Assembly (NCBI GenBank): GCA_018969485.1
Contig: JAGWYG010000017.1
Coordinates: 1 to 52,169, forward strand
DNA from: Chloroflexota bacterium
GTDB taxonomy: Bacteria; Chloroflexota; Chloroflexia; Chloroflexales; Roseiflexaceae
Length of the DNA: 52,169 bases
Reading direction: 5' to 3'
Notes under the pieces: generated by a model
The model's database searches: none
Told to the model about the DNA's origin: nothing
The model's input: the letters and a program-made list of their open reading frames with translations, nothing else
Made by a program: the position numbers and the translations under genes
In this document: positions 3,668-6,910 of the stretch, piece after piece
Layout of the letters: each line of letters begins with the position of its first letter
Numbering within the stretch: the stretch's first letter is position 1

Positions 3668-4348
3668 GTGACATTGAAACCATCCCGAACCGACCAGGCA
3701 GGTGCGGAGTACGTGTGGGTACCGGCGGGCGCGACGCTCGCCGGATTCTGGATGATGCGTACGCCGGTGACCAATGCCATGTGGCGCGCGGCAGTCGAAG
3801 CGGGGGCGGTGCAGCCGCCGCAGAGCACCGAAGCAGGCGACGACCCGGCCGGAGAGGCATACGACGATCCGGCCAAAGCTGACCATCCCGTCGTGGGCAT
3901 CACGCGCTACCAGGCCCGCTGGTATGCCGGCTGGGTCGGCGGGCGGCTGCCGCGCGACGACGAGTGGACGCGGGCGGCGCAGGGCGATGACGGCCGCATG
4001 TACCCGTGGGGCGACCAGCCACCGGACGACACGCGCGCAAACTTCGGCACCTTCCTCGCCCTGGGTGGCGACACGACGCCGGTGGGCAGCTATCCGGCGG
4101 GCGCCAGCCCGTATGGCCTGCTGGACATGGCCGGCAATGTGTGGGAGTGGGTCAACTCGGCACGCCCAGGCAGTGACGCGGAAGTCGGATACAGCGAGCA
4201 GCCCGGCATGCGCGGTGGCCCATTCATCGTCCGTGGCGGCGCATTCACCGTGCCGGGCGACTCGCTGCGGTGCACTGCGCAGATGGTATACGTCACCGAT
4301 CTCGCCCAGCGCACCATCGGCCTGCGGGTCGTCATCCCCGCGCGGTGA
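3668..4348 (+). CDS. FGE-sulfatase (SUMF1-fold) domain protein 1
   Basis: A 226-residue protein that is almost entirely one formylglycine-generating-enzyme-like domain (C-type-lectin-like fold, PF03781). The GTG start at 3668 follows GAGGAGGG. Landmarks are EYVWVPAG near the N-terminus, PVTNAMWRAAV, RLPRDDEW at 93-100, YPWGDQ, GLLDMAGNVWEWV (GNVWEW from 156) and a closing RGGAF...GLRVV. The paired catalytic cysteines of true FGE, which follow RGGS(Y/W), are not in place. Only a single nearby Cys (LRC) is present, so oxidase activity is doubtful and a binding or structural role is likelier. No signal peptide is seen. It is the first of three tandem paralogues and 27 bases from the second. Confidence 0.88.
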   Translation: MTLKPSRTDQAGAEYVWVPAGATLAGFWMMRTPVTNAMWRAAVEAGAVQPPQSTEAGDDPAGEAYDDPAKADHPVVGITRYQARWYAGWVGGRLPRDDEWTRAAQGDDGRMYPWGDQPPDDTRANFGTFLALGGDTTPVGSYPAGASPYGLLDMAGNVWEWVNSARPGSDAEVGYSEQPGMRGGPFIVRGGAFTVPGDSLRCTAQMVYVTDLAQRTIGLRVVIPAR

Positions 4349-4375
4349 TGGTCAGCAATCACGGGAGGGCATGAC

Positions 4376-6217
4376 ATGTCGCTTGACGCGTTGCTGGAGT
4401 GCATTCGTCGCCATCCGGAAACCCCGGGCTGGGGCATGGGCCGCTGGGAGGCTGCGCTGGACCGCGACGTCGCGGGCTGGCGCACGATCGTGGCCGGACC
4501 GGATTGCTGGCCCGCGCTGGAGCGGGCCAGGCCCAGGAGTGACTATGACGACCTGACGCGCGTGCTGGTCCGTTGTGCCGGCGACGACCTGGCATGGCGC
4601 TGGCGCAGGTCTGACGATACGCATCAGCGCCGCGCAGCCGAGGAATGGTTGCGGAGCAACTATTCATCGCACGATGACGGCTGGCGCGAATCCCGGCTGA
4701 TGGGCGCGATCGAGCATCGCATCGCCAGTCTGTTTGGTCGGCTTGAGCAGCGCCTCGACGCGCTGGTGGAGCGGCTCGGCCAGCGCGTGAGGTACGGCGG
4801 CATGCCGGTGAGGCGCGGGACTACATCGGCAGCGGGTGGATCAGGCGGCGGCATGGCCGGCCCAGCCTGGGCGTCGGCGGCGCCTGCTGCGCTGTACCTG
4901 CCGAGCCGCGCCGAGCGCGAGCTGATTGCGCGGGTGCTGGACTACCTGCAGCACGGCGGCTATGAGACGGCAGCGCTGCCACCGATCGTGCTGTCCGACG
5001 AGCCGCCACCGCTGTTCATCCGCTACCCCGAGCTCGAGGATGACGAGCCGCAGCCGCGGGGCGATGACCAGCCACGTCCGGCCAGCCTCGACATCCCGCG
5101 CAATCGCAAGCGTGGCCGGCCGGAGACATACCCGATCGAGCAACTGCTCGGCTGCTACCGGCCGGGCGACCAGACGATCGTCCTGTACGAGCGCGGCATC
5201 GGCTGGTACGGCCGGCAGGTGGGCGCCGACGCGCAGGCGCTGCAGGCGGTGGTGCTGGTGCACGAGATCGCCCACTGGGCGGCGCACGTGCTGCCGCACC
5301 CGGAGGTGCCGCTCTGGCCGCTGGACACCTACGTCGCGACATCGACCGCTGTGCACGAGGGCTGGGCACAGCTGATCACCTGGTGGATCGTGCGCGACGT
5401 CGGCGGAGCGGTCAAGGACAGCTTCGAGACGCTGAACCGGCGGCAGTCGCCACCATACCTGGTGTTCAGGGAGTTCGCCGGGCTGCACAGCGCGGGAGTG
5501 GTCGCCTCGCTCGCCATGCTGCGGCAACTCGGCCGCGGCGCACGCTTGCCGGACTGGCGGGCGGCGCTGCAGCCGGCGGATGCGGCGGGTAGTGCGGTGC
5601 AGCCGCAATCGCCCCGGACCGACCGCGTGGGCGCGGAGTACGTGTGGGTGCCGGCGGGCGCGGGGCTGGCGGGGTTCTGGATGCTGCGCACGCCGGTGAC
5701 CAACGCCATGTGGCGCGCGGCCGTGCAGGTGGGGGCGGTCAAGCCGCCGAGGAATACTCACGCGTATGACGATGCGGCAAAGACGCAGCACCCGGTGGTG
5801 TATGTGACGCGCGAGCAGGCGCGGGCGTATGCGACGTGGGTCGGCGGGCGGCTGCCGCGCGACGCGGAGTGGACGTGGGCGGCGCAGGGCGACGACGGGC
5901 GGACGTATCCGTGGGGCGAGCAGCCGCCGGACGCGACGCGCGCCAATTGCCGGCCGCATGGCCCGGGTGACACGACGCCGGTGGGCAGCTATCCGGCGGG
6001 TGCCGGCCCGTATGGCCTGCTCGACATGGCCGGCAACGTGTGGGAGTGGGTCGACCCCGATGACGGCGGCGACCAGCCCTATCTGGTGCGCGGCGGCGCA
6101 TGCTTCGACGGCCCGGCCACCGTCGCCTGTGCCGCGCGGGAGACCGGCGACGCCGATACGGATGATTGCTACGACGGCTTCCGCGTCGTCATCGCGCGGG
6201 AGCTCGCCGGCATGTGA
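4376..6217 (+). CDS. HExxH metallopeptidase-like + FGE-sulfatase domain fusion protein
   Basis: A 613-residue protein with a GGGAGG box before its ATG. Residues 1-100 form an unassigned Trp- and Arg-rich domain. Residues about 105-140 look amphipathic or coiled (IEHRIASLFGRLEQRLDALV). Residues about 170-400 carry HEIAHWAAH (H296, E297, H300) followed by HEGW (E328). This is the HExxH...E spacing of a gluzincin-type zinc peptidase. Residues about 418-613 form an FGE-fold domain closely related to the neighbours (RLPRDAEW, YPWGEQ, GNVWEWV from 553, RGGACF...GFRVV). The canonical FGE Cys pair is absent. No signal peptide is apparent, so it is probably cytoplasmic. The middle domain matches no family I can name, and peptidase activity is inferred only from the motif. 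Confidence 0.85.
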   Translation: MSLDALLECIRRHPETPGWGMGRWEAALDRDVAGWRTIVAGPDCWPALERARPRSDYDDLTRVLVRCAGDDLAWRWRRSDDTHQRRAAEEWLRSNYSSHDDGWRESRLMGAIEHRIASLFGRLEQRLDALVERLGQRVRYGGMPVRRGTTSAAGGSGGGMAGPAWASAAPAALYLPSRAERELIARVLDYLQHGGYETAALPPIVLSDEPPPLFIRYPELEDDEPQPRGDDQPRPASLDIPRNRKRGRPETYPIEQLLGCYRPGDQTIVLYERGIGWYGRQVGADAQALQAVVLVHEIAHWAAHVLPHPEVPLWPLDTYVATSTAVHEGWAQLITWWIVRDVGGAVKDSFETLNRRQSPPYLVFREFAGLHSAGVVASLAMLRQLGRGARLPDWRAALQPADAAGSAVQPQSPRTDRVGAEYVWVPAGAGLAGFWMLRTPVTNAMWRAAVQVGAVKPPRNTHAYDDAAKTQHPVVYVTREQARAYATWVGGRLPRDAEWTWAAQGDDGRTYPWGEQPPDATRANCRPHGPGDTTPVGSYPAGAGPYGLLDMAGNVWEWVDPDDGGDQPYLVRGGACFDGPATVACAARETGDADTDDCYDGFRVVIARELAGM

Positions 6218-6244
6218 GGCCGGTGGCCGGCGCAGAGGCATACG

Positions 6245-6910
6245 ATGGCTGAGCTGATCCATCACGATCGTGTGGGCGCGGCCTATGCCTGGGTTCCGCC
6301 GCGCCATGAGCCTGCGCCCACCACCCCGGACCCCGCGTTCCTCCTGCGCCGTGCCACCCGACTGATCCGGCCGGGCGGGTGTTTCGTCATGCGTACGCTG
6401 GTGACCAACGCGATGTGGCGCCAGGCGGCAGCGGCCGGCGCATGCCGCGCGCCGCTCAGCACCATGCGCTACAACGACCCGGCATTCGCCGACCATCCGG
6501 TCACCTACGTGACGCGGGCGCAGTCCCGCGCGTATGCGGCGTGGATTGGCGGCCGGCTGCCGCGCGACAGCGAATGGACGCGGGCAGCGCAGGGCGACGA
6601 TGGGCGACTCTGGCCGTGGGGCGATGAGCCGGCAGACGCGACGCGCGCCAACTTCGACGAGCACGTCGATGACACGACGCCGGTGGGCAGCTATCCGGCG
6701 GGCGCCAGCCCGTACGGCCTGCTCGACATGGCCGGCAACGTGTGGGAGTGGGTCGACCCCGATGGCGGCGGCGATCGGCCATACATCACACGCGGTGGCG
6801 CGTTTCTCAATTCCGCACTCATGGTCCGATGCGACGCGCGGTTCACATTCGAATCCAGCGATGGCGGCAGCTACTTCATCGGCGTGCGCGTCGTGCTGCC
6901 GCGCCCCTGA
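6245..6910 (+). CDS. FGE-sulfatase (SUMF1-fold) domain protein 3
   Basis: A 221-residue single-domain FGE-fold protein and third member of the tandem set, 27 bases after the fusion protein. It has AYAWVPP near the N-terminus, then a unique insert (about residues 20-42, Pro/Arg-rich). RTLVTNAMWRQAA, RLPRDSEW, WPWGDE, GLLDMAGNVWEWV (GNVWEW from 164) and RGGAF...GVRVV follow. As in its neighbours, the catalytic cysteine pair of genuine FGE is not conserved. The central region is nearly identical in DNA to the other two genes, while the last 50 residues differ strongly. It probably forms one transcription unit with the two genes upstream. Its function is unknown beyond the fold. Confidence 0.86.
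   Translation: MAELIHHDRVGAAYAWVPPRHEPAPTTPDPAFLLRRATRLIRPGGCFVMRTLVTNAMWRQAAAAGACRAPLSTMRYNDPAFADHPVTYVTRAQSRAYAAWIGGRLPRDSEWTRAAQGDDGRLWPWGDEPADATRANFDEHVDDTTPVGSYPAGASPYGLLDMAGNVWEWVDPDGGGDRPYITRGGAFLNSALMVRCDARFTFESSDGGSYFIGVRVVLPRP

Follow-up and report, generated by a model that had tools for sequence, protein, structure and literature searches.

Three adjacent FGE-fold genes in a Roseiflexaceae genome as probable fixed relatives of DGR variable proteins

The window, a 52,169-nucleotide stretch of contig JAGWYG010000017.1 from a Chloroflexota bacterium, carries three consecutive genes (A, B, and C) that share a nearly invariant piece of DNA and then end in loops with almost nothing in common. 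Because this loop is the one that diversity-generating retroelements (DGRs) vary in proteins of the same fold, the locus raises the question of whether the loops are still being rewritten or have long been fixed. We favor, with a probability of about 0.7, the reading that A, B, and C are old, non-catalytic ligand-binding members of an expanded family of DGR variable-protein paralogues and are no longer rewritten. The evidence for this reading includes mismatches to the skeleton of the DGR-type variable regions, the retained loops of gene C and of several paralogues, the absence of the catalytic cysteine pair, and the fold match.

Layout and fold of genes A, B, and C

The features of the three genes are collected in Table 1. 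All three match PF03781 (Pfam E values from 8e-41 to 8e-30), and the AlphaFold2 model of gene C (pLDDT 92) matches CalU17, FGE, EgtB, and the DGR protein TvpA (PDB ID 2y3c) in Foldseek, placing the genes in the FGE/SUMF family by sequence profile for A–C and by fold for C. The preliminary description of three tandem FGE paralogues is correct as to the fold and needs qualification for gene B, in which 613 residues include a different first domain of about 400 residues. These N-terminal residues gave no match in Pfam, PADLOC, or NCBIfam and weak, partial matches in only 3 of 119 relatives; judged from its HEIAH motif, the domain may be a protease. Between EWV and RGG, gene A carries an insert that is longer and unrelated. 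An Rfam search of the window returned no match.

Table 1. Positions of the genes, conserved blocks, and loops in the window
Feature	Coordinates	Strand	Evidence or value
Gene A, stand-alone FGE/SUMF-fold (PF03781), 226 aa	3668..4348	+	Pfam E 8e-41
Conserved 84-base block, copy A	4070..4153	+	3–4 base differences among copies; dS 0.11–0.17
Diverged loop of A, RGG to GLRVV, DGR variable-region position	4241..4318	+	15/35 skeleton mismatches
Gene B, 613 aa, N-terminal HExxH-bearing part and C-terminal FGE domain	4376..6217	+	Pfam FGE, residues 431–605
Gene B N-terminal part, no named family	4376..5590	+	profile searches without match
HExxH motif HEIAH, putative zinc-protease motif, in gene B	5262..5276	+	sequence reading
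Conserved 84-base block, copy B	5969..6052	+	3–4 base differences among copies; dS 0.11–0.17
Diverged loop of B, RGG to GFRVV	6098..6175	+	13/35 skeleton mismatches
Gene C, stand-alone FGE-fold, 221 aa	6245..6910	+	Pfam E 2.6e-30
Conserved 84-base block, copy C	6671..6754	+	3–4 base differences among copies; dS 0.11–0.17
Diverged loop of C, RGG to GVRVV	6800..6880	+	12/35 skeleton mismatches

The catalytic role of the FGE cysteine pair, C336 and C341 in the human enzyme (numbering as in the PDB entries named C336S and C341S), is established. None of the A, B, and C loops has the corresponding Cys-x4-Cys after RGG, which makes an enzyme function of these proteins unlikely; the loops contain one, three, and one cysteines, respectively (those of B spaced by 9 and 13). 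Instead, their FGE/SUMF-fold (C-type-lectin-like) domains would bind a ligand, with the C-terminal loop located at the DGR writing site. In gene B the FGE domain would sense the ligand and the N-terminal part would respond, possibly by proteolysis in conflict or signaling.

Conserved block and age of the genes

The sequence GACACGACGCCGGTGGGCAGCTATCCGGCGGG recurs exactly over 32 bases at 4070–4101, 5969–6000, and 6671–6702, as described earlier, with no adjoining base on either side common to all three copies. Over the 84-base segments ending at GNVWEWV, the pairwise differences are 4, 3, and 3 bases, in agreement with the 3–4 reported. The "near-identical cores" of the preliminary description apply to this 28-codon block but not to the whole scaffold, where residue identity outside the block is 61–75%. 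Where residues are identical, the codon differs in 8–12% of cases within the block versus 37–43% in the remainder of the domain (Fisher p 0.006–0.026 per pair), indicating that the likeness of the block exceeds what chance or protein constraint alone would produce. The dS profile, 0.11–0.17 within the block compared with 0.75–1.01 in the N-terminal part and rest of the domain, likewise sets the block apart at synonymous sites. From RGG to GxRVV, the loops are nearly unshared, as had been noted, with residue identities of 15, 27, and 27%, a pairwise dN of 0.79–1.09, and a pairwise dS of 0.64–1.18, both kinds of change thus occurring at near-equal rates. Along their length the genes diverge very unevenly, the opposite of the pattern named beforehand as speaking against the original proposal.

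A short gene-conversion tract that evened out the 84-base block would account most simply for its low dS, and the gene conversion proposed earlier is plausible for this tract alone, the only place where dS is low. Our confidence in it is moderate because the block is not special when averaged over the paralogues of the genome (synonymous difference of 0.29 in the block and 0.33 in the N-core), an average that also led us to reject a family-wide synonymous constraint on the block.

The age of the genes was judged against the sister species (MAG G001, GenBank LaPlata_bin-0339, 85% complete), in a comparison of one MAG with one sister species. The neighboring gene AXE1 has a dS of 0.39 between the two species and a dN/dS of 0.09; because dS among A, B, and C is 0.75–1.0, these genes split at or before the separation of the species. 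The FGE part of gene B is 89% identical in DNA to that of a Ser/Thr-kinase fusion on contig C142. In a tree of loop-less FGE domains B is nearest to the same fusion and groups with A, C155, and C202; only this A/B/C155/C202/C142 group holds in the tree, which has an unresolved deep backbone and includes a frame-broken row (C141). The high dS values and the nearest relative of B on another contig leave a recent local triplication unsupported, and the recent duplication of the scaffold proposed in the preliminary description is not supported either.

In the sister, the syntenic orthologue of gene C lies at one end of contig C187, gene A is represented by a broken start remnant only (contig C419, with the break inside the FGE gene), and neither A nor B has an intact orthologue there. 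The loop of gene C and that of its orthologue are equal in length and identical at 14 of 27 residues (dN 0.31, dS 0.80), and the resulting dN/dS of about 0.4, from 27 codons of one pair, corresponds to weak constraint. The loops of three paralogues outside the skeleton group (C31, C128, and C90:19962) are strongly kept between the two species. Conserved loops across strains had been named as evidence against diversification; in this comparison of species they are found in part for gene C and clearly for several paralogues. Current diversifying selection or loop replacement in A, B, and C, as first suggested, is not supported, given the kept loop of C and its dN/dS, and the 12–15 of 35 skeleton mismatches of the three loops.

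Recombination through the 84-base block might instead have brought in new C-terminal cassettes. The block of gene C is identical in codons to that of a gene on contig C202 (0 of 24 synonymous differences) while their loops are unlike, and such swapping would also suit the kinship of the B domain with the C142 kinase fusion and the break inside the FGE gene of the sister's A orthologue. However, the genome yielded no matching donor loop for any of A, B, and C, and breakpoints within the family are also expected from plain gene conversion; we regard loop swapping as quite improbable.

Variable regions of paralogues and loops of the window

Six genes elsewhere in the genome (on contigs C21, C115, C141, and C142, and two on C90) share a common loop skeleton in which changes fall almost only in the first two bases of NNC/NNT codons, which bears out the earlier remark that this loop is the position varied by DGRs. 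Among the five intact variable regions, 200 of 322 comparisons differ at the inferred adenine sites versus 8 of 836, arising from two mutations, at the other skeleton sites. Because the adenine sites were picked from the alignment by eye, part of this contrast is inherent in the assignment. Immediately upstream of the variable regions, an 81-base block shows 72 differences in 810 comparisons. Two tests are independent of the site assignment. C or T is the last base of each of the 71 variable codons, against 53 expected from the codon use of the same genes (P about 10^-13.6), and the base is variously A, C, or G at two synonymous positions (GGN and CGN) where the template, which was inferred rather than seen, has A. 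Both point to adenine-specific copying from one template and not to protein selection. Read from sequence, the six dispersed paralogues thus bear an adenine-specific DGR footprint at a common skeleton. An identical GC-rich 3' end of 21 bases, GTTGTCTCCCCCGGGCCCTGA, adjoins the varied synonymous sites; its 24-base form is confined to this genus and is present in our genome in the six genes and in none of A, B, and C. Two sister genes have the same skeleton together with the sister's own constant-site changes, and the one on sister contig C115 is syntenic with the C90 genes.

The C141 copy (L074:163-521) belongs to an incomplete FGE gene and is broken by two single-base insertions in its variable region. 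The tandem genes C90:38790 and C90:40887 correspond to a single gene in the sister (C115), with flanks that are 88% identical, and the number of variable-protein copies therefore changes between species. About 15 bases past the stop of C21, C90:38790, C115, and sister C115 lies a hairpin, GCGGGCG...CGCCCGC, with flanking direct repeats CTCTGGCCTCTGG. Its z value is −3.2 to −3.9 in C21, C90:38790, and sister C115 and −0.2 in our C115, and it is not common to C90:40887 and C142. It resembles the hairpins of DGR targets (PMC3240598) and could be a terminator.

Genes A, B, and C have the C-type-lectin/FGE fold and the loop at the gene 3' end that are characteristic of DGR variable proteins. Their loops deviate from the skeleton at non-adenine sites (Table 1), compared with 0–1 mismatches in the intact DGR-type copies and intermediate values of 5 in C202b and 9 in C208. 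No region matching the inferred template except at adenines is present in A, B, or C, though they could match a different, unseen template. They lack the GC-rich, IMH-like 3' end, and the hairpin after C is not significant. Codons ending in C or T are slightly enriched in the window loops (25 of 41 versus 149 of 340, p 0.046); since this bias is weak and similar in all paralogues, it does not prove DGR writing of the loops, and we rejected it as proof of such an origin.

These observations bear on the possibility that a DGR using another template still acts, or acted very recently, on A, B, and C and thereby produced the loop divergence. The fold, the position, and the placement at the gene 3' end are right for a target, and DGR-type paralogues exist in the genome. 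Against this, the loops differ at third codon positions and constant codons as well as by 12–15 of 35 skeleton mismatches, the GC-rich 3' end is not common to the three genes, the hairpin after C is not significant (z −0.29), and the C loop is kept in its orthologue. We consider active targeting highly improbable.

The genes might also be ordinary old paralogues with no DGR history, in which a surface loop is under relaxed or weakly positive selection and the block is maintained by codon preference and protein constraint. Loop dN of about 0.8–1.1 and dS of 0.6–1.2 between the paralogues fit such a history, as do the dN/dS of about 0.4 between the C orthologues versus 0.09 in AXE1, a block hardly more conserved than the N-core over the genome's own paralogues (0.29 versus 0.33), and the block being the best-kept part in distant relatives too. 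This explanation nevertheless leaves unaccounted for the difference in codon changes inside and outside the block (8–12% versus 37–43%) and the loop layout (A, C, and V at fixed places) held in common with the DGR-type paralogues, and it appears unlikely to us. In the favored reading, that of fixed relatives, the loops of the window would once have been written by a DGR and then fixed.

The wider family, its retroelement, and known systems

PF03781 has 37 matches in the 4.02-Mb MAG (95.6% complete, 247 contigs) and 14 in the sister. In the fusions that were read, the FGE domain is C-terminal and follows exchanged partners, including Ser/Thr kinases (C142, C125, and C16), WD40 repeats (C231), carboxypeptidase-regulatory-like repeats (C134 and C2), membrane- or lipoprotein-like leaders, and the HExxH part of gene B. 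On contig C245 (L077:5074-6597, minus strand), a CARF-HEPN protein (Csx1/Csm6-like, PADLOC E 3e-79), seemingly missing the start of its CARF domain, ends in an FGE domain. Sister contig C424 (L163) contains an array of at least five FGE domains spread over two long open reading frames, with several domains in each protein. The binding domain is joined to varied N-terminal parts, from HExxH in B to kinase, WD40, CARF-HEPN, and membrane or lipoprotein parts elsewhere.

Neither a DGR-type reverse transcriptase nor a template repeat was found in either our MAG or the sister. A pattern search with the skeleton core at 0 mismatches returned only the six variable regions and hence no template copy. 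The sole reverse transcriptase found in our MAG, on contig C161, was rejected as a DGR enzyme, as its class is group-II-like and its orthologues carry QGGALSP and not IGNxTSQ; the gene is cut by the contig end (L062) and adjoins a CARF (Csm6-like) gene. The candidate template C128:5-121 is a near copy, at a contig end, of a gene 250 bases on and is most likely an assembly duplicate. A search of viral contigs with two patterns found no DGR parts. Because several contigs (C142, C155, C128, and C21) end at or near variable regions, loss of the enzyme and template in assembly is likely, and we infer that they lie on DNA absent from the assembly or were recently lost. With neither in either MAG, the family is linked to a working DGR by its footprint only. 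Complete DGRs occur in order-level relatives, with FGE-type template/variable-region pairs near IGNLTSQ reverse transcriptases and the template layout inferred here, and the mismatches of these pairs fall at template A in 15 of 15 (L087), 17 of 18 (L174), and 9 of 10 cases. A DGR-type reverse transcriptase is present within the same family (G007), and relative G029 has an NTPase-type protein with an FGE domain together with a DGR reverse transcriptase. A more far-reaching idea, which we regard as very improbable, is that the genus has no DGR reverse transcriptase of its own and that its dispersed variable regions are rewritten in trans by an enzyme on a separate mobile replicon or of another class; A, B, C, and other fixed copies would then make up an expanding collection of frozen receptors coupled to new effectors.

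The case of the window is more ordinary, that of three old paralogues. Across the genome and its sister, the genus offers one receptor domain that is newly hypermutated in some copies, decaying in others, and fixed in still others, in which the fixing of DGR products and the handing over of the binding domain to kinase, WD40, CARF-HEPN, and HExxH partners could be followed directly.

Our reading is in line with cyanobacteria, whose dispersed kinase-lectin paralogues occur with and without template homology (PMC7517822), and with the trans-acting DGRs of multicellular bacteria (PMC10907252). The remote variable proteins and variable-protein homologues of cyanobacterial DGRs (Vallota-Eastman et al. 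2020, PMC7517822) are like the present family in having a C-terminal C-type-lectin/FGE-type domain on kinases, WD40, and other proteins dispersed over the genome, with some copies free of template homology and one with remnant homology and no reverse transcriptase nearby. In contrast to the cyanobacteria, the present case concerns a Chloroflexota genus with 37 FGE domains, six copies of one skeleton, and neither reverse transcriptase nor template in the assembly, and HExxH and CARF-HEPN partners are seen here. In multicellular bacteria, DGR targets are diversified in trans and include STAND NTPase-FGE proteins (PNAS 2024, PMC10907252; eLife 2020, PMC7159879). These share with our genes a C-terminal FGE-fold sensor of putative conflict proteins, whereas A, B, and C are stand-alone or HExxH-fused, without an NTPase or a reverse transcriptase. 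The TvpA protein of Treponema denticola (PDB ID 2y3c) has the same fold as the gene C model (Foldseek E 1.3e-8) and is a DGR target, unlike the window genes, which show no fresh footprint. SUMF1/FGE (PDB IDs 1y1e and 2q17) shares fold and Pfam family with A, B, and C, and the catalytic Cys-x4-Cys is present only in FGE.
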